Assembly: GCA_021775455.1 (NCBI GenBank)
Contig: JAJFHU010000029.1
Span: 1-55,385, forward strand
Source of the DNA: Hyphomicrobiales bacterium
GTDB taxonomy: Bacteria; Pseudomonadota; Alphaproteobacteria; Rhizobiales; Rhizobiaceae
Length of the DNA stretch: 55,385 nt
Reading direction: 5' to 3'
Made by a program: the position numbers and the translations under genes. The notes under the pieces were generated by a model, which worked only from the letters and a program-made list of their open reading frames with translations, ran no database searches and was not told where the DNA came from. Positions 16,226 to 30,164 of this stretch are shown here, piece by piece. Numbering within the stretch: position 1 is the first letter of the stretch; every line of letters begins with the position of its first letter.

Positions 16226-16981
16226 CTAGTTAGACATCAGCGCCAAAGAAAGATTGCGCAAACTTAGGGCTATCACGACAGTGGCAACCGCGATCATGAC
16301 CGGTTTTTCGGGTAGATGTTTGGTTGCGTAGGCCGCAAATGGCGCCGCAAGGGCGCCGCCAATGACGAGGCCGGTTATAACCGGCCAAAGGGCGACCCCA
16401 ATGGTCGCGACAAAGGTCGCGGTAACCGTGGTTGTCACGAAGAATTCAGCCGCGTTGGCAGAACCTATGGCAAAGCGTGGATTAATGCCGCGCACAATCA
16501 GGGTTGTAGTAACCATCGGTCCCCAACCGCCGCCGCCGATTGAATCGAGGAACCCTCCTATGAGGCCTAGGATTCCGATGTGTTTGGAAGAAATAGATGG
16601 TCTTTGTGTGTTCCAAAGTGCACGCCGCAGGATAACAAATCCCATGATCACCAGATACACACTGACTACTGGTCGAATATAGGCACTTGATACCGTAGCC
16701 AGGATGTAGGCACCGATGGCGCCACCTACCATCCCTGGAAGGGCAAGCCGTTTGACCAGGCCTCGATCGATATTTCCCACACGCCAATGCGCGGCACCGG
16801 AGGCAGCCGTGGTAAAAATTTCAGCGGCATGTACTGAAGCGCTAGCTGTCGCTGCAGTGACTCCCGAACTCATAAGAACTGTCGTGGCAGTCAGGCCATA
16901 GGCCATACCAATTGCACCATCAACAATTTGCGCAGCAAATCCAATGGCGGCGTAGAGTAGAATGTCATCTATAGCGGTCAA
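16226..16981 (-). CDS. TSUP-family transporter (TauE/SafE-like sulfite or sulfonate-related anion exporter)
   Basis: About 251 residues and 7-8 membrane helices in two repeated halves. The first half begins IGFAAQIVDGAIGMAYGLT, where the acidic GAIGMAYG motif is typical of TSUP/DUF81 proteins. The second repeat begins IGGFLDSIGGGGWGPMVT, the classic GxxxDxxxGGGWGP motif. TauE/SafE members move sulfite, sulfoacetate or other anions across the inner membrane. The frame is open upstream to an ATG at 17119, but the extra 46 residues are polar and unlike a membrane start, so I prefer TTG at 16981 with GGA nearby. It is divergent from htpX. Confidence 0.85.
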   Translation of the reverse strand: MTAIDDILLYAAIGFAAQIVDGAIGMAYGLTATTVLMSSGVTAATASASVHAAEIFTTAASGAAHWRVGNIDRGLVKRLALPGMVGGAIGAYILATVSSAYIRPVVSVYLVIMGFVILRRALWNTQRPSISSKHIGILGLIGGFLDSIGGGGWGPMVTTTLIVRGINPRFAIGSANAAEFFVTTTVTATFVATIGVALWPVITGLVIGGALAAPFAAYATKHLPEKPVMIAVATVVIALSLRNLSLALMSN

Positions 16982-17133
16982 TTTTTTCGTCCGACTAGGG
17001 TAAGTTTTGGGGCAATTTTGGGCCGTATGCCTAGGTACCGGAGATAGGTAGGAAACGCTAGCGATACTCTCACAGTTGACGTGGCAATATCTGAACTTGA
17101 AATTGCGGTTGGTCGTCAAACTCTAAGAATTAA

Positions 17134-22612: not shown

Positions 22613-22984
22613 TTATTTGTCCGCTTCGAACTTCTCCGCTTCTTCCTGCAGGATTGGAGCCGCCAGGGCTATCGAATGAATGCCCATAATTGACGTGAGT
22701 TGAATTACCTCCAGTATTTCTTCCTTCGTCGCACCTTCGCGAAGGGCATTCTGGATATGACGACGAACACCCGGTGCCCAAAGATGGGTAGTCGCCGCAT
22801 TAATCGCAATGAAGATCAGTTCCTTGGTCTTCTGTGGCAGTGGCCCCTGCTTCTGCGGCACAGAGCGAAAGACAAGAAATGCCTCCAGATAATCCGGATC
22901 CATTTCTTCCAGCATGTCCCACATCGGGTTCCAGTCTGCAGTTTGCCGCTGTGCTTCGGTAGCAGGATACTTCTTGTGGTTCAT
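22613..22984 (-). CDS. Carboxymuconolactone decarboxylase / AhpD-like protein
   Basis: A 123-residue protein of the CMD superfamily. The core helix pair LPQKTKELIFIAINAATTH is followed by GVRRHIQNALREGATKEEILEVIQL, which is the CMD repeat. The CxxC of true AhpD peroxidase partners is absent, so a peroxidase role is unlikely. Decarboxylase-type members act on lactones or keto acids. The ATG at 22984 is 1 bp after the stop of the thiamine-diphosphate enzyme (TGATATG), with GGAAG eight bases upstream, so it is the last gene of the seven-gene operon. Confidence 0.85.
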   Translation of the reverse strand: MNHKKYPATEAQRQTADWNPMWDMLEEMDPDYLEAFLVFRSVPQKQGPLPQKTKELIFIAINAATTHLWAPGVRRHIQNALREGATKEEILEVIQLTSIMGIHSIALAAPILQEEAEKFEADK

Positions 22985-22985
22985 A

Positions 22986-24674
22986 TCAACTTCCACGGTG
23001 CTTGAAACTGTCGCGACGGAACGAGTAAAGCGCAGCCGGATCCATTGCTACATCAACTACTGCTGGCTTGCCACAATCAAGCGCTGCCTTGATCGCCTCG
23101 CCTGCTTCAGTGCAACTTTCAGCCCGAAAACCTCTTGCACCATAAAGTTCTGCCAACTGGCCAAAACGCGGGCTGGAAATATCAGCGCCGATGTAGCGCT
23201 CTCCAAAGAAATCACGTTGGTAGGCCTTCTCTGCACCCCAGCACTGATTGTTCATGACCACCGTGACCGTATTGATGCCGTGATCAACCGCCGTGGAGAG
23301 TTCCGAAACGGTCATTCCAAAACCACCATCACCCATCAGTGACACAACTGGACGATCGGGGCAGGCAAGTTTGATTCCAAGACCGCAAGCAAACGAAAAC
23401 CCGACCAGCCCAAAATCAAGTGGCGTAAACAGGCTTTTCGGCTGCCAGTAATTGAGCGCATCGGTTGCTTGTAGACAAAGCGTTCCCGCATCCATTGTAA
23501 TGGCAACGTCCTTGGGCAGTGTATCCCGCAAAGTCCGGAACAGGCCGAAGGGCTGGATGGGCATTGCTGCTGTATCCGCATCAGCGTCACGTTTTTCAAG
23601 GTAAGCCTTGCGCTCAGCCTGATAGGCTTCGGTCCAGGCATCGGCCTTCTTACGATCTGTAATCTTGCCAAGCGCATCTACCAATTGAAGTGCAGCAGTG
23701 GGCGCGTCCGCCCAGATACCAAGTTCAACCGGAAAATAGCGACCAATTGCAGTTGGCTCCAATTCCACCTGAATAATCGCTGCATCCTTGTTGATATTGT
23801 CATAGGTATAAAAAGTCGAATTGAAGCCCAAGCGTGTCCCAAGAGCCAGAATGACGTCGGCTTCCTTGACCAATCTGGATGCAACCGCATTACCGCGCGG
23901 CCCCATTTGCCCCGCATTTAGAGGATGCCCGAATGGAATTGCATCCCCATGACCGGGTGAAGTCACAATCGGACAATTGAGTGCTTCTGCAAGCGCCAGC
24001 GCCTGCTTGTCGCCACCAGTATTCTTGATGCCACCGCCTGCAATAATGACCGGTTGCGAAGCACCGGCCAGAAGTTTCGCTGCGGTGCTGATTTGATCTG
24101 CATTGGCAGCTGGCATCGAATTCGAACGGTATGCTGATGGGCTTTGCATATCTTCAAACTCGGCATTGGCTGACAACACATTCCGTGGCAGATTCAGTTG
24201 AACCGGTCCGCGACGTGGTGTCATGGCTACCCGAAACGCTTCGCGAAACATTTCCGGAACCCGGTCTGCACTCGTCGCTGTCCACGTCTTCTTGGTAATC
24301 GGTGTGAACAGTGACTGTTGGTCCACTTCCTGAAATGCATCGCGGTAAACGTGTCCGGAAGATAATGATCCGGCAATGGAGACAACAGGTGAATATGCAG
24401 CCTTTGCCTGTCCAAGACCGGTGACCAGATTGGTTGCGCCCGGCCCGTTCTGACCTGCCAGAATTACACCTGCTTCGCCGGAAGCTCGCGCATAGCCATC
24501 CGCCATGTGTGTCCCGGTTCGCTCATCATGAACACCGATGAAGTTGATCTCCTTTGCGTCATAGAGTGCATCGAACATCTCCATGGTCGCGGAACCAATC
24601 AGGCCAAACACATGCTTGGTATTTTCGGCCTTCAGCGCCTCTACGGCAGCTTGACCTCCAGATAATTTTTTCAT
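22986..24674 (-). CDS. Thiamine diphosphate-dependent enzyme (Xsc / acetolactate-synthase-like)
   Basis: A 562-residue three-domain ThDP enzyme. The catalytic Glu51 is in VHDERTGTHMADGYARA. FQEVDQ is at 114-119, a central domain spans about 195-335, and the cofactor motif GDGGF at 448-452 ends in NNQCWG at 475-480. The C-terminus reads YSFRRDSFKHR. FQEVDQ and FRRD-x2-K features recall sulfoacetaldehyde acetyltransferase (Xsc), but benzoylformate/oxalyl-CoA-type decarboxylases and acetolactate synthases share the fold. Within an operon with an aldehyde dehydrogenase, decarboxylation of a 2-keto acid or C-S/C-C cleavage next to an aldehyde are the likely reactions. The precise substrate is not determined. 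Confidence 0.88.
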   Translation of the reverse strand: MKKLSGGQAAVEALKAENTKHVFGLIGSATMEMFDALYDAKEINFIGVHDERTGTHMADGYARASGEAGVILAGQNGPGATNLVTGLGQAKAAYSPVVSIAGSLSSGHVYRDAFQEVDQQSLFTPITKKTWTATSADRVPEMFREAFRVAMTPRRGPVQLNLPRNVLSANAEFEDMQSPSAYRSNSMPAANADQISTAAKLLAGASQPVIIAGGGIKNTGGDKQALALAEALNCPIVTSPGHGDAIPFGHPLNAGQMGPRGNAVASRLVKEADVILALGTRLGFNSTFYTYDNINKDAAIIQVELEPTAIGRYFPVELGIWADAPTAALQLVDALGKITDRKKADAWTEAYQAERKAYLEKRDADADTAAMPIQPFGLFRTLRDTLPKDVAITMDAGTLCLQATDALNYWQPKSLFTPLDFGLVGFSFACGLGIKLACPDRPVVSLMGDGGFGMTVSELSTAVDHGINTVTVVMNNQCWGAEKAYQRDFFGERYIGADISSPRFGQLAELYGARGFRAESCTEAGEAIKAALDCGKPAVVDVAMDPAALYSFRRDSFKHRGS

Positions 24675-24685
24675 TATTCAGCCTT

Positions 24686-25492
24686 TCAATTGGCCTTGTT
24701 TGCCAATGTTTCATGTAAAAATGCAAGGATCGGACCTGTGAACAATGCAGGCCTTTCTACCAAACCCATATGTTGCAGTTGCGGAACAACGATTACGCGG
24801 GATCCGGAAATTTCGGATCCGATAGCATGACTCATTTCTGGCGTACTGCCAGTGTCATTCTCACAGGTCATAACCAGAGTTGGGTGCGTAATCGGTGGCT
24901 TCGGCCTGATCAGTTCAATTACGCCACTTGCCAAAACCTGACGGCACTTGGTGTAACTGTCTGTGTCATTTGCCAAAACCCAATTGCGAACTTGCTGAAT
25001 GACATCATCCCGCCCCTCTCTGAATGTGGGTGTAAACCAGCGTTCAATCGTTGCATCCAGAGTAGCGCCTGGACCACCTGCACCTGTGTCAGCGGCTCTT
25101 TGCTCCACCAGTTGTTGGGCTTCAGGGGTACGCTCATGCGGGGAGTTCAAAATTGCCAATGCTGATACCCGATCTGGATAATTCATGGCAAAACGTCGAT
25201 TGATCATTCCACCGAGAGAAAATCCAACAAGAGGCGCAGTTTCAATTCGAAGTTCATCCAGCAGCACGGCCAGCTGCTCAGCATATAATGTCAGGTCAGG
25301 CACCCGTGGCGGATTGGCACTCTGACCATGACCATATAGATCGTAGGTCAGAATCCGATAGTGTTCTGCAAACACCGGCACATGTTGATCCCACGTGTTG
25401 GGAACACCAAGCCCATGTATGAGGACCATAACCGGGGCATGTTCCGACCCATGCCACCGATAGGTTGTTCCGTTATTGGTAACTTCTGACAA
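24686..25492 (-). CDS. Alpha/beta-fold hydrolase
   Basis: A 268-residue soluble hydrolase with a complete catalytic triad. The nucleophile is Ser92 in GFSLGG, the acid is Asp213 in CENDTGST, and the base is His241 in LQHMGLVE. The oxyanion-hole motif HGLGVPNTWDQH is near residue 26. It resembles 3-oxoadipate enol-lactonase and RutD-type carbon-nitrogen or ester hydrolases. It lies 11 bp upstream of the ThDP gene and 2 bp after the PF06684 gene, so it belongs to one operon. Hydrolysis of an ester or lactone formed by the flavin monooxygenase would fit; this is inference. Confidence 0.9.
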   Translation of the reverse strand: MSEVTNNGTTYRWHGSEHAPVMVLIHGLGVPNTWDQHVPVFAEHYRILTYDLYGHGQSANPPRVPDLTLYAEQLAVLLDELRIETAPLVGFSLGGMINRRFAMNYPDRVSALAILNSPHERTPEAQQLVEQRAADTGAGGPGATLDATIERWFTPTFREGRDDVIQQVRNWVLANDTDSYTKCRQVLASGVIELIRPKPPITHPTLVMTCENDTGSTPEMSHAIGSEISGSRVIVVPQLQHMGLVERPALFTGPILAFLHETLANKAN

Positions 25493-25494
25493 GC

Positions 25495-26091
25495 CTATAC
25501 CCCTGCCGGATTATCCACATCACGACCCATTTCCTTCAGGTCTTGATATCGGTCTCCAATCCTGTGATGCGGATGACCGCCAATGGATGCGCCCAATGCG
25601 ACAATGATTTCATCATCAGCCGGTGCATCGGGAATGGACAAGTGGATGGTCTGGTAGTGAGAACGACGACCGCCATCATCCTTGTCCATAAGCGGGATCA
25701 TCAACGACGTGCCTGCCGCACCCCTCGTGTTTGAAAACACAAGATAGGACTTGGCGTCTACCGCTTCTCGATATTGATTGCCAAACCAGAGTGTATGGGT
25801 AAGTGCCTGGGCATGTTCCAGTTCGCCACCCATGCCAACAACCGAAGCCTTGCCATAACCTTCAAGTTTATCGCCGGTCACTTCAAGAATCATGTCGGTT
25901 AGAAGCTTTCCGGTTACCGGTCCGTACTCCCGAATTTCCGGTCCAAGGTCTTCTACAAATCCACGTCCAAACCAGGGATTCTTGACAATGGCAATTGCTG
26001 ATACCAGTTTGGTTGGCGTCGGAACCTCCCTGCTACCCTCAACCATCGTGGTTTGAATGTTGAGAAGTGTACGTCTGATTTCTACAGTCAT
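25495..26091 (-). CDS. PF06684 ('amino acid synthesis', DUF1185) family protein
   Basis: A 198-residue soluble protein. The family is recognised by VEIRRTLLNIQTTMVEG at the start, VKNPWFGRGFVEDL near residue 36, GYGKASVVGMGGELEHAQAL near residue 77 and VALGASIGGHPHHRIGDR near residue 165. The family name is historical; to my knowledge no enzyme activity is established. Members recur beside luciferase-like monooxygenases, flavin reductases and alpha/beta hydrolases in soil and marine Proteobacteria, as here, so a hydrolytic or lyase step in the same pathway is likely. It lies 23 bp after the monooxygenase gene and 2 bp before the hydrolase gene. Confidence 0.85.
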   Translation of the reverse strand: MTVEIRRTLLNIQTTMVEGSREVPTPTKLVSAIAIVKNPWFGRGFVEDLGPEIREYGPVTGKLLTDMILEVTGDKLEGYGKASVVGMGGELEHAQALTHTLWFGNQYREAVDAKSYLVFSNTRGAAGTSLMIPLMDKDDGGRRSHYQTIHLSIPDAPADDEIIVALGASIGGHPHHRIGDRYQDLKEMGRDVDNPAGV

Positions 26092-26114
26092 GTAAATTTA
26101 TCCCTGAAAACTGA

Positions 26115-27149
26115 TTAAGAAAAATTCGGCATTACTTTGTCGATGAAAAGTTCCAACGAGCGTTTCTGCTGCCCCATGTCCATACCCATTGATGCGTAGT
26201 AGATGAAAGCATCTACTCCAATATTGTCATATTGTTTCAGTTTTTCCGTCACCACCTCTGGTGAGCCAAACAGGAGATTTTCTTCCAAAGTTGCCGGATC
26301 GTAACGGAAATTCCCGTCAAGCTGGTCCGCCGGGACGTGTTCGGGGAAACCATTGATCACATCACCCTTCTTCGTCATCAGGTTTCCAAACTGCCCCAAC
26401 ACACCGCGAACCGATGCCATCGCAGCTGCTCGATCATCCTCATTGTCGTAAATTGCAGAATGACGCATCAATGCCCAGGTGCCATCATATTTGCCGCCAT
26501 TGGCAGCAATTGAAGCATCAAGTCGCGCGCGGTATTCTTCGGCCTCACTAAACGGCATGGTGAGCGGCCAGGACATGATGTTGCAACCATTTTGCACGGC
26601 GTAATCGAAGGTAATTGGTGCGCGCGCAGCTACCCAGATTGGCACGTCCTTTTGAACCGGCTTCGGGCAGGATGTCGCTTTGGGAAATTGCCAGTATTCT
26701 CCCTTGTGTTCGTAGTCGCCTGCCCATAACTTTTTCACTACCGGAAGCATTTCCTGCATATATTTCCAGCTGTCTTTCTGATCAAGGCCTGGAAACATGC
26801 GGTCAAATTCGCGTTGGTAAGCACCAGATCCAATACCGAATTCAAGACGACCATCACTGATCAAGTCCAAAAGGGCAGCTTCACCTGCCAGATTGATCGG
26901 ATGCCAGTAAGCAGCATTCACAACACCCACACCCAGGCGAATTTTCTTGGCGTACTCTCCCCACCAGGTCAGCATTTGAAACGGGTTTGGAGCTATCGTC
27001 ATTTCGAGCGCATGGTGTTCCGCTGCCCAGGCGATTTCAAATCCGGCAGCATCCGCCATCTTGACCATTTCAAGCGTATGATCGCGCACCGCCTTCATGT
27101 CAATTTCAGGCGTCATGCGTTCCAGATTGATTGCAATATGAAATTTCAT
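26115..27149 (-). CDS. LLM-class flavin-dependent monooxygenase
   Basis: A 344-residue TIM-barrel protein of the luciferase-like family. Typical blocks are ADAAGFEIAWAAEHHALEM (residues about 32-50), KKIRLGVGVVNAAYWHPINL (about 67-86), LISDGRLEFGIGSGAYQREF (about 93-112) and PIWVAARAP near residue 175. The EHH motif is common to LuxA-like monooxygenases. Such enzymes use FMNH2 supplied by a partner reductase, here most probably the 28676-29203 product. I chose the ATG at 27149 with GGAG eight bases upstream; a longer frame overlaps the upstream gene. The substrate is unknown; it does not look like a close SsuD or RutA. Confidence 0.9.
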   Translation of the reverse strand: MKFHIAINLERMTPEIDMKAVRDHTLEMVKMADAAGFEIAWAAEHHALEMTIAPNPFQMLTWWGEYAKKIRLGVGVVNAAYWHPINLAGEAALLDLISDGRLEFGIGSGAYQREFDRMFPGLDQKDSWKYMQEMLPVVKKLWAGDYEHKGEYWQFPKATSCPKPVQKDVPIWVAARAPITFDYAVQNGCNIMSWPLTMPFSEAEEYRARLDASIAANGGKYDGTWALMRHSAIYDNEDDRAAAMASVRGVLGQFGNLMTKKGDVINGFPEHVPADQLDGNFRYDPATLEENLLFGSPEVVTEKLKQYDNIGVDAFIYYASMGMDMGQQKRSLELFIDKVMPNFS

Positions 27150-27171
27150 GTCAATTGCTCCTTTGCAAAAC

Positions 27172-28653
27172 TCAACGGCTGTGAAACTGGCTTGCCAGTG
27201 GTTCATCAGAAGTGTTCATCCAGACGGTTTTTGGCCTGGTGTAATCCATCACGGCCTGAAAGCCGCTCTCGCGTCCATAACCGGACGTTTTCATGCCACC
27301 GAATTCGGCAACCGGTGAAATCACCCGGTAGGTGTTGACCCAGACAATCCCCGCCTTGACTGCTTCGGCTACTCTCACGGAACGCGCACTAGAACGGGTG
27401 AATATCCCGGCGGCCAATCCATGAACCGTTTCGTTTGCCAACCGCACGGCCTCTTCTTCGGTCTTGAACCGGATGACGCTCACAACCGGCCCAAACAGTT
27501 CTGTATCGACAATTTTCAGATCCTGGCTCGGGCATTCGACAATTGTCGGTTCATAGAAGTTTCCAGACAGCCCTTCCGGCTCCTTGCCGCCGCAACGCAC
27601 GGTGCCACCCTGGTCTATGGCCAGGGCGACCTCCCGCTTGATGTTTTCCAGTTGCGCTCTTGTGCAAAGCGGTCCCATCTGGGTTTCATCAAGCATCGGA
27701 TCACCAATGTTGACGGAAGCCGCAACCGCTTCCATGCGCTCAAGGAATTCATCAGCAATTGCTTCATGAAGATACAAGCGTGAACCTGCCACACAGCTTT
27801 GACCGGAAGCAGCAAAAATTCCGCCAACGGCACCGTTCACCGCACTTTCAATGTCCGCATCATCGAATACCAGAATTGGTGACTTGCCACCCAGCTCCAG
27901 CGACACTTCAGCAAAATTCTCCGCCGAATTATGAACAATGTGCCTTGCTGAAACCGGTCCACCGGTAAAGGAAACCCGAGCAACGAGTGGATGCGAGGTA
28001 AGCGCTTTGCCACAAGGATCGCCGTGACCAGTGATGATGTTGACTACGCCATCCGGGATTCCGGCCTTTTCGATCAGCTTGCCAAACTCCAGCATGGCCG
28101 AAGAGGCATGTTCAGATGCTTTCAAAACAATGGTATTTCCCGCCGCCAGTGCCGGTCCGATTTTGACCGCACTCAGGAACAATTGCGAATTCCAGGGAAC
28201 CACTGCTGCAATTACCCCAAGAGGCTCGCGCTTCGTAAAAACAAACATGTCAGGCTTGTCGATAGGGAGCGTATCACCGTTAATCTTGTCCGCACACCCG
28301 GCATAGAAATGAAAAAACTCGGATATGTACTTTGCCTGCCAACGCGTTTCCTTGAACATCTTGCCGGTGTCTATGGTCTCTATACGGCCAAGTTCCTCAG
28401 AAGCATCGCCAAGCAGATCAGCAAGTCTGCGCAGGCAATGACCTCGTTCGGTCGGGCTCATTTGTTTCCAGGGACCGAAATCCAGTGCGCGGTGAGCAGC
28501 TTCTACGGCCGCATTGACATCTTTAGCAGTGGCCTCCGGCACCCGAGACCAAACTTCATTGGTTGTGGGGTTGATGCTTTCAAATGTTTTGCCATCAGAA
28601 GCATCGACCCATTTGCCATCAATCAGCATTTGATAATTCGCAATGTCACTCAT
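27172..28653 (-). CDS. Aldehyde dehydrogenase (NAD(P)-dependent)
   Basis: A 493-residue classic ALDH. Active-site Cys287 is in SGQSCVAGS, general base Glu253 is in LELGGKSP, the oxyanion Asn is in VVPWNSQL (155), and the cofactor motif FTGGPVSA is near residue 229. Similarity of form is to the betaine/phenylacetaldehyde class. It would oxidise an aldehyde generated by the monooxygenase or by the ThDP enzyme. It is the second gene of the operon. I start at the ATG at 28653 rather than a TTG two codons earlier. Confidence 0.93.
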   Translation of the reverse strand: MSDIANYQMLIDGKWVDASDGKTFESINPTTNEVWSRVPEATAKDVNAAVEAAHRALDFGPWKQMSPTERGHCLRRLADLLGDASEELGRIETIDTGKMFKETRWQAKYISEFFHFYAGCADKINGDTLPIDKPDMFVFTKREPLGVIAAVVPWNSQLFLSAVKIGPALAAGNTIVLKASEHASSAMLEFGKLIEKAGIPDGVVNIITGHGDPCGKALTSHPLVARVSFTGGPVSARHIVHNSAENFAEVSLELGGKSPILVFDDADIESAVNGAVGGIFAASGQSCVAGSRLYLHEAIADEFLERMEAVAASVNIGDPMLDETQMGPLCTRAQLENIKREVALAIDQGGTVRCGGKEPEGLSGNFYEPTIVECPSQDLKIVDTELFGPVVSVIRFKTEEEAVRLANETVHGLAAGIFTRSSARSVRVAEAVKAGIVWVNTYRVISPVAEFGGMKTSGYGRESGFQAVMDYTRPKTVWMNTSDEPLASQFHSR

Positions 28654-28675
28654 GCTCAATCAATCTCTTTGAAAT

Positions 28676-29203
28676 CTAATTGGTATTTACTGTCATCGGA
28701 GAAATGCTCCGAAAGGTACGATCCAGATAAATCAGCGGTTGCGTAATCTGGCCATCCATTCCAGTTACCGCACCGATGAAAATCCTGTGGCTGCCACTGA
28801 GATTCTCGTGCACCACATCACACTGGAAACTGAGCGCATTCGAAATTGCCGGACAGAGTCCGACAGGGTGCACGCAGTCTATCCCGTCAAATCGATCCGG
28901 AAGTTCTGCATCCTGATTTCCCGCGAAGCGCTCCGCCATATATCGCAATTCCTGCGAAAGTACATTGATACAGAATTTGCCATTACCGCTGACTGACCTT
29001 GCAATTCGGCTGTTGGCATTTAGGCAAACCAGCAATGTTGGCGGGTCAGCCGACACCGAGCAAAAAGCACTGACCGTTGCTCCGTGAAGACCGCAATCAC
29101 CATCGGTCGTTACGACCGCAACGGAATTGGCAACTTGACGCATATGGCTCAAGTATGCCCCACGCACATCCATTGTATGTTCACTTGGTTGCTGACAAGT
29201 CAT
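28676..29203 (-). CDS. Flavin reductase (HpaC/RutF-type)
   Basis: A 175-residue FMN-binding split-barrel protein. The family motifs are SVAVVTTDGDCGLHGATVSAF at residues about 27-47, SADPPTLLVCLNANS, and GKFCINVLSQEL near residue 74. It makes reduced flavin for a two-component monooxygenase, here the LLM enzyme two genes downstream. AGGGA lies seven bases before the ATG at 29203. It is the first gene of the seven-gene operon, divergent from the LysR regulator across 124 bp. Confidence 0.9.
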   Translation of the reverse strand: MTCQQPSEHTMDVRGAYLSHMRQVANSVAVVTTDGDCGLHGATVSAFCSVSADPPTLLVCLNANSRIARSVSGNGKFCINVLSQELRYMAERFAGNQDAELPDRFDGIDCVHPVGLCPAISNALSFQCDVVHENLSGSHRIFIGAVTGMDGQITQPLIYLDRTFRSISPMTVNTN

Positions 29204-29297: not shown

Positions 29298-29312
29298 TTC
29301 GAAATTTTCGAA
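29298..29312. promoter_or_regulatory. Candidate operator TTCGAA-N3-TTCGAA in the LysR/flavin-reductase divergent region
   Basis: Two copies of the self-complementary hexamer TTCGAA, at 29298-29303 and 29307-29312, are separated by ATT. They lie 15 bp before the LysR start and 94 bp from the flavin reductase start, the usual place for LysR autoregulation. No experiment or comparison supports it beyond position and symmetry. Confidence 0.4.
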
Positions 29313-29327: not shown

Positions 29328-30164
29328 ATGAGCCTGATACTGATCAAGACATTTCTGGCAATTGTTGAAACCGGAAGCTTGGTAAAGGCATCAAGGCAAT
29401 TGCACATCACACAATCAACTGTAACTTCTCGACTGAAATCTCTGGAAGAGGATGTGGGGCAGGTTCTGGTACACCGTCAAAAATCCGGCATAATGCTGAC
29501 CGCACCAGGGCACAAATTCCGCCGTTACGCAGAAGCCATGAACAATATGTGGCAGCAGGCATTGCTTGAAACCACATTGCCAAGCGGAATGGATTCCATG
29601 TGTACGCTCGGTTGCGTTCCCGATTTGTGGAGCAATCTTGCACGACCGTTGATAAGGGCCATTCGCAAAGATCACCCAACTACCGCCTTGTCCCTGAGAA
29701 CCGGAGACACGGTCCAAATTGAAGAATGGCTTGCCATGGGGCTCATTGATGCTGCGATCACATATCGCTCCACAACGCAGGCCAACATGAGTGTCCACCA
29801 GCTCAACCCAGAAGCACTTGGTGTATTTTCAACAGTCAAGGACGGGCGCACCCGATTCGATCCAAATTACGTTTATTTTGACGCCGGATTGGAGTTCGGT
29901 CGTGACCACGCTTCCACTTATACCGATGCAGGAGTGGCAAAACACAGTTTTGACAGTGCTCAATGGTGCATGGAGTACATAATGGATTGTGGAGGGTCGG
30001 CCTATCTTCCGAAACATCTTGCAGAGCCGCATGTGATAAATGGCAGACTGTACCATCTTGACGAGGCACCGGATTTTTTCCGGGACCGATTTCTGATTAC
30101 CAATGATACTGCATCTCCCGCATGGAGTTGGTTACCAGGGCTGGTGAACAAAGTTGCTGCCTGA
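29328..30164 (+). CDS. LysR-family transcriptional regulator
   Basis: A 278-residue regulator. The N-terminal winged helix-turn-helix spans residues 1-60 (FLAIVETGSLVKASRQLHIT, then QSTVTSRLKSLEEDVG). The effector domain follows, with an unusual WCMEYIMDCGGSAYLPKHL near its end. It is divergent from the seven-gene operon, which it presumably activates in response to a pathway intermediate. The protein is slightly short for the family (usually about 300). Confidence 0.93.
   Translation: MSLILIKTFLAIVETGSLVKASRQLHITQSTVTSRLKSLEEDVGQVLVHRQKSGIMLTAPGHKFRRYAEAMNNMWQQALLETTLPSGMDSMCTLGCVPDLWSNLARPLIRAIRKDHPTTALSLRTGDTVQIEEWLAMGLIDAAITYRSTTQANMSVHQLNPEALGVFSTVKDGRTRFDPNYVYFDAGLEFGRDHASTYTDAGVAKHSFDSAQWCMEYIMDCGGSAYLPKHLAEPHVINGRLYHLDEAPDFFRDRFLITNDTASPAWSWLPGLVNKVAA

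Follow-up and report, generated by a model that had tools for sequence, protein, structure and literature searches.

What pathway is encoded by a compact set of seven genes in a Hyphomicrobiales bacterium, and which compound does it break down? The genes lie on the reverse strand at positions 22613-29203 of contig JAJFHU010000029.1 (assembly GCA_021775455.1), the first 55,385 nucleotides of which form the stretch analysed here (the window). They encode a flavin reductase, an aldehyde dehydrogenase, a luciferase-like (LLM) flavin monooxygenase, a PF06684 protein, an alpha/beta hydrolase, a thiamine-diphosphate (ThDP) enzyme and a CMD-family protein. All seven proteins matched Pfam families above the family cut-offs, and the gene for a LysR-type regulator (29328-30164, forward strand; Pfam) faces away from them across 124 bases. 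A sequence-only reading had described seven tightly packed genes with gaps of 1-23 bp under a divergent LysR regulator; the open reading frames, the families and the gaps (16, 22, 23, 2, 11 and 1 bases) were confirmed, and related blocks recurred in other genera and families. These gaps are counted with the CMD start placed at the ATG at 22984 and the LLM start reset from 27206 to 27149, where ten aligned relatives begin with MKF; a gene starting at the ATG at 27206 would be longer and overlap the aldehyde dehydrogenase gene. The same reading knew of no described pathway with this set and called it unassigned, which was too strong: trigonelline breakdown had been overlooked, and five of the seven families recur together.

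We consider the balance of probability to lie slightly in favour of the operon encoding the upper part of a pathway whose substrate is an N-methylated pyridine carboxylate. The ring of this quaternary betaine would be opened and the product hydrolysed. Homarine (N-methylpicolinate) is the favoured, though unproven, substrate, with a trigonelline-like compound next. An N-methylpyridine carboxylate is favoured because of betaine-type transporters near related loci, the link to TgnF, the names of the carriers, and the genome's type-III glutamine synthetase gene, which has glutamate-synthase-like genes near it. In the sequence of reactions that we infer, the flavin reductase (28676-29203, reverse strand as for all seven; PF01613, Flavin_Reduct, 107 bits, with RutF and HpaC models matching below cut-off) would supply reduced flavin to its proposed partner, the LLM oxygenase (26115-27149; Bac_luciferase, 175.5 bits). 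This would open the ring oxidatively to give an N-formyl enamine bearing an aldehyde, which the aldehyde dehydrogenase (27172-28659; Aldedh, 535 bits) would oxidise. The alpha/beta hydrolase (24686-25492; Abhydrolase_1, 79 bits) would cleave the enamide or N-formyl bond, yielding formate and a short carbonyl acid together with methylamine or an N-methylamino acid; its Ser92, Asp213 and His241 positions were invariant in 10 of 10 aligned hydrolases from four architectures. The TgnF-like PF06684 protein (25495-26091; 193 bits; solved relatives 2qtp and 3byq) would help, as reported for TgnF, the ThDP enzyme (22986-24674) would then act on the carbonyl product or a by-product, and LysR would control the operon through a T-N11-A box. 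A two-component flavin oxygenase with a hydrolase, acting by oxidative ring opening and then hydrolysis, had been proposed earlier, and the families, the three hydrolase residues and the neighbourhoods all fit that proposal.

Trigonelline degradation (tgn) in Acinetobacter baylyi ADP1 was reportedly described by Perchat et al. in 2018 in PNAS, with TgnC and TgnD said to fill the aldehyde dehydrogenase and hydrolase roles, and trigonelline genes of Rhizobium meliloti are said, in a title, to lie on pSym. By gene content, the window operon would resemble the tgn system in its putative two-component ring-opening oxygenase (reductase plus luciferase-like part), its PF06684 protein and, reportedly, its aldehyde dehydrogenase and alpha/beta hydrolase; unlike tgn, it has extra ThDP and CMD genes. 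According to published work, bacterial trigonelline breakdown starts with ring opening by TgnA/TgnB (PMC8269262), a network of luciferase-like monooxygenases includes TgnB (PMC11354265), and TgnF of A. baylyi, a homologue of a PF06684 protein, is reported to stimulate TgnE, which oxidises succinic semialdehyde (PMC7913881). The statement of the sequence-only reading that PF06684 has no established activity had missed this report. No such stimulating effect was reported for HcdD, the PF06684 protein studied in that work (PMC7913881), and a study of PF06684 structures describes a chorismate-mutase-like fold and suggests a part in amino-acid metabolism, giving no activity (PMC2954203).

The flavin reductase, LLM, aldehyde dehydrogenase, alpha/beta hydrolase and PF06684 families recurred together in at least four architectures, across genera and families. 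A PF06684 match (E ≤ 0.001) was present in 159 of 297 genomes of the same family, the window's included. The best 30 PF06684 loci comprised the window itself, four loci with the window-type order (L008, L009, L010 and L014) and 25 in which PF06684 lay beside a hydrolase and a flavin reductase or dehydrogenase. We named the architecture of the window type W. The tgn-like type T has the order PF06684-hydrolase-flavin reductase-LLM-aldehyde dehydrogenase and was seen in L042-L049, from genomes of the family, and in Sinorhizobium meliloti (L065); PF06684 was 57-68% identical to that of the window and LLM only 36-39%. A gene for succinate-semialdehyde dehydrogenase adjoins the type T block in L044 and lies about 4 kb off in L048. 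Type A (flavin reductase-aldehyde dehydrogenase-LLM-hydrolase-CMD, with PF06684 nearby) was found in Agrobacterium C58 (L061), Thalassospira (L063) and L051-L053, and type B (Aminobacter L059, Parasedimentitalea L060) joins RidA, hydrolase, aldehyde dehydrogenase and LLM to a tail of enoyl-CoA hydratase (ECH), hydroxyacyl dehydrogenase, BKACE, acyl-CoA dehydrogenase and CoA ligase. The window's own genome carries a second, type B-like module (L182, C29 27000-46900) with acyl-CoA dehydrogenase, CoA transferase, flavin reductase, hydrolase and RidA, together with an aldehyde dehydrogenase 72% and an LLM 58-59% identical to those of the window. Tandem PF06684 genes were seen in L054 and L055, at 30-32% and 39-41% identity to the window's.

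Scanning with an LLM alignment of 11 rows yielded at least 531 relatives, of which the best 80 named loci were kept. Their titles included Roseovarius (15), Granulosicoccaceae (5), SAR116 (4) and Planktomarina (2); we take Roseovarius, SAR116 and similar carrier names to denote marine groups. Loci with ECH or a type B hydrolase marker were assigned to type B (18/80), and the other 62 to type W, by default where no tail was seen. Forty-three of the 62 were well-flanked, with at least 3.2 kb before and at least 5 kb after LLM. Among these, the hydrolase was present in 39, aldehyde dehydrogenase in 36, LysR in 36, PF06684 in 34, ThDP in 27, flavin reductase in 14, a small unnamed protein labelled ABM in 12 and CMD in 4. 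All seven families of the window operon occurred together in only 3 of the 43, and the expectation that the seven-family neighbourhood would be conserved as one block, which the sequence-only reading had put forward for checking across genomes, was rejected on this count.

ThDP was absent from all 13 usable type B loci, eight of which had BKACE, and across all 80 loci ThDP (35) and BKACE (13) never occurred together. In the 32 loci with room downstream of ThDP, CMD followed in 7 and ABM in 12, never both, with neither in 13. In a quick LLM tree, which took in one very long row (L154_11148), type T was separate (SH-aLRT 100) and 61 window-type rows formed one group (SH-aLRT 100) within which ThDP-bearing and ThDP-less loci were intermixed; the ThDP loci L076, L153 and L161 and the ThDP-less loci L143, L148, L150 and L152 fell outside it. 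Type B did not form one clade (4 changes).

The ThDP enzyme, which has three TPP_enzyme Pfam domains (114-121 bits) and, by alignment, Glu51 and a GDG motif at 448, is a frequent add-on to the module and not its core, because no relative at E ≤ 1e-100 was found in 12 of 14 genomes that have the type W core with no adjoining ThDP gene. The remaining two carry one elsewhere. These 14 were drawn from the 16 well-flanked ThDP-less type W loci (L108 and L113 were left out; genome completeness is not given), and on their evidence we rejected the idea that ThDP is essential to the module. Among six type B genomes, one carried an 80% identical ThDP enzyme, encoded in a type W locus apart from its type B locus (L179), and another a 46% relative. 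When 385 genomes of the class, including that of the window, were searched, ten had a ThDP enzyme at E ≤ 1e-115 (apart from the window's, six were 70-79% identical and three 46-49%), and five others had an LLM at least 63% identical to that of the window. LLM and ThDP (at least 70%) co-occurred in four of the five LLM carriers, compared with a ThDP frequency of 6 in the 384 other genomes overall (hypergeometric P 8e-8, uncorrected for kinship, with two of the four genomes belonging to one family). The fifth carrier, G489, is only 64% complete, and G599 carries the two genes on separate contigs. Type W may be described as a type of trigonelline-like ring-opening module with ThDP as a frequent add-on, absent from many relatives. 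A bolder proposal, tentative and in our view rather doubtful, is that type W represents an undescribed route for N-heteroaromatic betaines, in which the Xsc-related ThDP enzyme would carry out a new carbon-carbon or carbon-heteroatom cleavage of the ring-opened carbonyl product and would replace both the semialdehyde dehydrogenase of tgn and the beta-oxidation/BKACE tail of type B.

Regulation and transport were also compared. The candidate LysR operator of the window, TTCGAAATTTTCGAA (29298-29312), is of the T-N11-A type and follows the pattern TTCR-N7-YGAA. This pattern was present in 20 of 43 LysR intergenic regions (the window's included), whereas 200 mononucleotide shuffles gave a mean of 0.5; for TTCG-N7-CGAA the figures were 12 of the 43 and a mean of 0.07. 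These regions are a different set from the 43 well-flanked loci, and related loci among them are not independent. The box was common to loci with and without ThDP, and the other 23 regions lacked TTCR-N7-YGAA. ProV-like ATP-binding cassette (ABC) ATPases, labelled as such by sequence reading, lay near 8 of 86 clustered loci (L038, L084, L086, L089, L090, L149, L160 and L163), of which five were type W, including the window's close sisters L084, L089 and L090, and three type B. A weak, sub-cut-off ProX match lay beside the reference ProV-like ATPase in L038, and proX is annotated near the Agrobacterium C58 cluster. The window's genome encodes a type-III glutamine synthetase (669.5 against a cut-off of 469.6; 1 of 14 control genomes was also above), with a second synthetase-like gene and three glutamate-synthase-like genes within about 6 kb. 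Such glutamine synthetase and glutamate synthase genes are as in methylamine use.

No NCBIfam model scored above its cut-off for any of the seven proteins among the matches listed (the best 25 per protein; 0 of 25 for the aldehyde dehydrogenase), and the NCBIfam test therefore supplied no pathway name. The near matches do bear on other routes. The substrate had been suggested to be sulfonated, in which case LLM would desulfonate or oxygenate it and the ThDP enzyme would be a sulfoacetaldehyde acetyltransferase. Xsc models are indeed the two top-scoring NCBIfam matches of the ThDP enzyme, the enzyme is 33% identical to the true Xsc of the same genome, a WGAEK stretch is common to both, and a SulP transporter adjoins the ThDP gene in one relative (L050). 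The description of the enzyme as Xsc-like stands to that extent, but its score against TIGR03457 (405.7) was 270 bits short of the cut-off of 676.4, whereas the true Xsc, on another contig, scored 933.5, and LLM reached 36 bits against a cut-off of 518 for alkanesulfonate monooxygenase. The low Xsc score and the true Xsc elsewhere in the genome led us to reject the sulfonate route, which we regard as very improbable. The comparison with the Rut pyrimidine pathway fared similarly. Its ring-opening logic of LLM, flavin reductase and alpha/beta hydrolase is shared with the operon, and RidA lies near LLM in 7 of the 13 well-flanked type B loci and in L059 and L060. However, membership of the Rut system did not hold, as RutF (103.9 against 254.75) and RutD (68.1 against 238.5) were far below cut-off, no RutA model was among the best 25 of 31 NCBIfam matches of LLM, and neither isochorismatase (RutB) nor RidA (RutC) was found by Pfam among the seven operon proteins; we give a Rut-like pyrimidine route hardly any credence. 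A carbocyclic aromatic or a lactone could also be considered, with Baeyer-Villiger opening followed by PcaD- and PcaC-like steps, since the hydrolase resembles 3-oxoadipate enol-lactonase (PcaD), the operon includes a CMD gene, and in L037 the block adjoins genes that read as pca-like from their sequence. Here too the score (152.7) fell below the cut-off (255.85), the CMD protein had no NCBIfam match, and with CMD in 4 of the 43 well-flanked type W loci this route appears improbable.

Another N-heterocycle or a cyclic amide, not an N-methylpyridinium, is also an unlikely alternative, though less so than the preceding routes; LLM would open the ring, the hydrolase would cut the amide and the ThDP enzyme would cleave a 2-oxo acid. 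The genomes G575 and G653 each encode a ThDP enzyme at 70% identity but gave no LLM match at E ≤ 1e-60. In L079, a ThDP enzyme of the same identity occurs with no LLM, following a BD-FAE type hydrolase and preceding a TRAP transporter, and in L080 another has hydantoinase A/B genes near it, with a like hydrolase by sequence reading. The ProV-like transporters near close sisters and the TgnF link nevertheless indicate a quaternary compound. More distant ThDP enzymes (45-49%) lie near MttB-like methyltransferases in L081-L083 and in L062, which is on the megaplasmid of Ruegeria pomeroyi, and flavin oxidoreductases accompany them in L062 and L082; demethylation of a betaine followed by a ThDP step is perhaps encoded there. 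To judge by its neighbours, the ThDP enzyme is linked to nitrogen compounds and not to a single module.

Several points weigh against the N-methylpyridine carboxylate pathway. The operon has no succinate-semialdehyde dehydrogenase (TgnE), again unlike tgn; its single aldehyde dehydrogenase is 35% identical to the annotated enzyme of this kind in L064. No homarine or trigonelline product that requires the ThDP enzyme could be drawn. Identity between the LLM of the window and the tgn-like one of Sinorhizobium is only 37-38%, and the likeness to the tgn system was judged from gene families and published descriptions. No transporter gene lies within the seven-gene operon, and a first count of 15 betaine transporter loci was cut to 8 once they were set against a member read as PotA-like, the other seven being PotA-like or unclear by sequence reading. 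The exact box occurs at three sites in the genome and a reversed control at one; because the other two sites span the start codon of a fatty-acid hydroxylase gene or lie within an O-antigen-ligase-like gene, the exact box names no further target. For homarine in particular, the published argument is that TgnA/TgnB are unlikely to act on it for steric reasons (PMC8269262), which would ask for a distinct oxygenase. The identification of five genes and a regulator in marine bacteria with a homarine operon is also weakened, as type T has the same five families, in one form in a 1.4-Mb, 30% GC, SAR11-like genome (L212, G555) with tgn-like PF06684-hydrolase-LLM-aldehyde dehydrogenase. Because of this genome, shared families and marine habitat do not alone indicate homarine.

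Homarine catabolism has reportedly been described by Ferrer-Gonzalez et al. (2026, Nat Microbiol 11:1531), with the operon said to be named homABCDER. Type W resembles it in occurring in Rhodobacterales and SAR116, as homarine catabolism reportedly does, and in its fullest core of five genes and a regulator, and this core may already have been published as the homarine operon. Unlike that operon, the window's would have ThDP and CMD as additions, and the SAR11-like genome carries the tgn-like form instead. In published work, R. pomeroyi draws down homarine fast (PMC12817926), and its growth was poorer on homarine than on trigonelline (PMC8269262), a study for which a correction reports a contaminated homarine standard (PMC10134881). 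Mgd is said to take part in homarine catabolism (PMC13390433).

The CMD protein (22613-22984; Pfam CMD, 40.8 bits) has as its best solved relative 2q0t, a putative gamma-carboxymuconolactone decarboxylase. The motif of AhpD-like peroxidases is CxxC, and such a role is unlikely for this protein because it contains zero cysteines. The flanking genes on either side appear unrelated to the operon. A TauE/SafE family permease is encoded at 16226-17119, about 5.5 kb past the operon with other genes intervening.

Among marine and plant metabolites, homarine and trigonelline are common, and it is a live question which enzymes are used on them by which bacteria. If the proposed pathway is true, PF06684 would gain a fixed setting, and a ThDP enzyme of undefined reaction would be open to direct assay. 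One oxygenase module with interchangeable tails (succinate-semialdehyde dehydrogenase, ThDP or beta-oxidation/BKACE) would then explain adaptation to several nitrogen rings.

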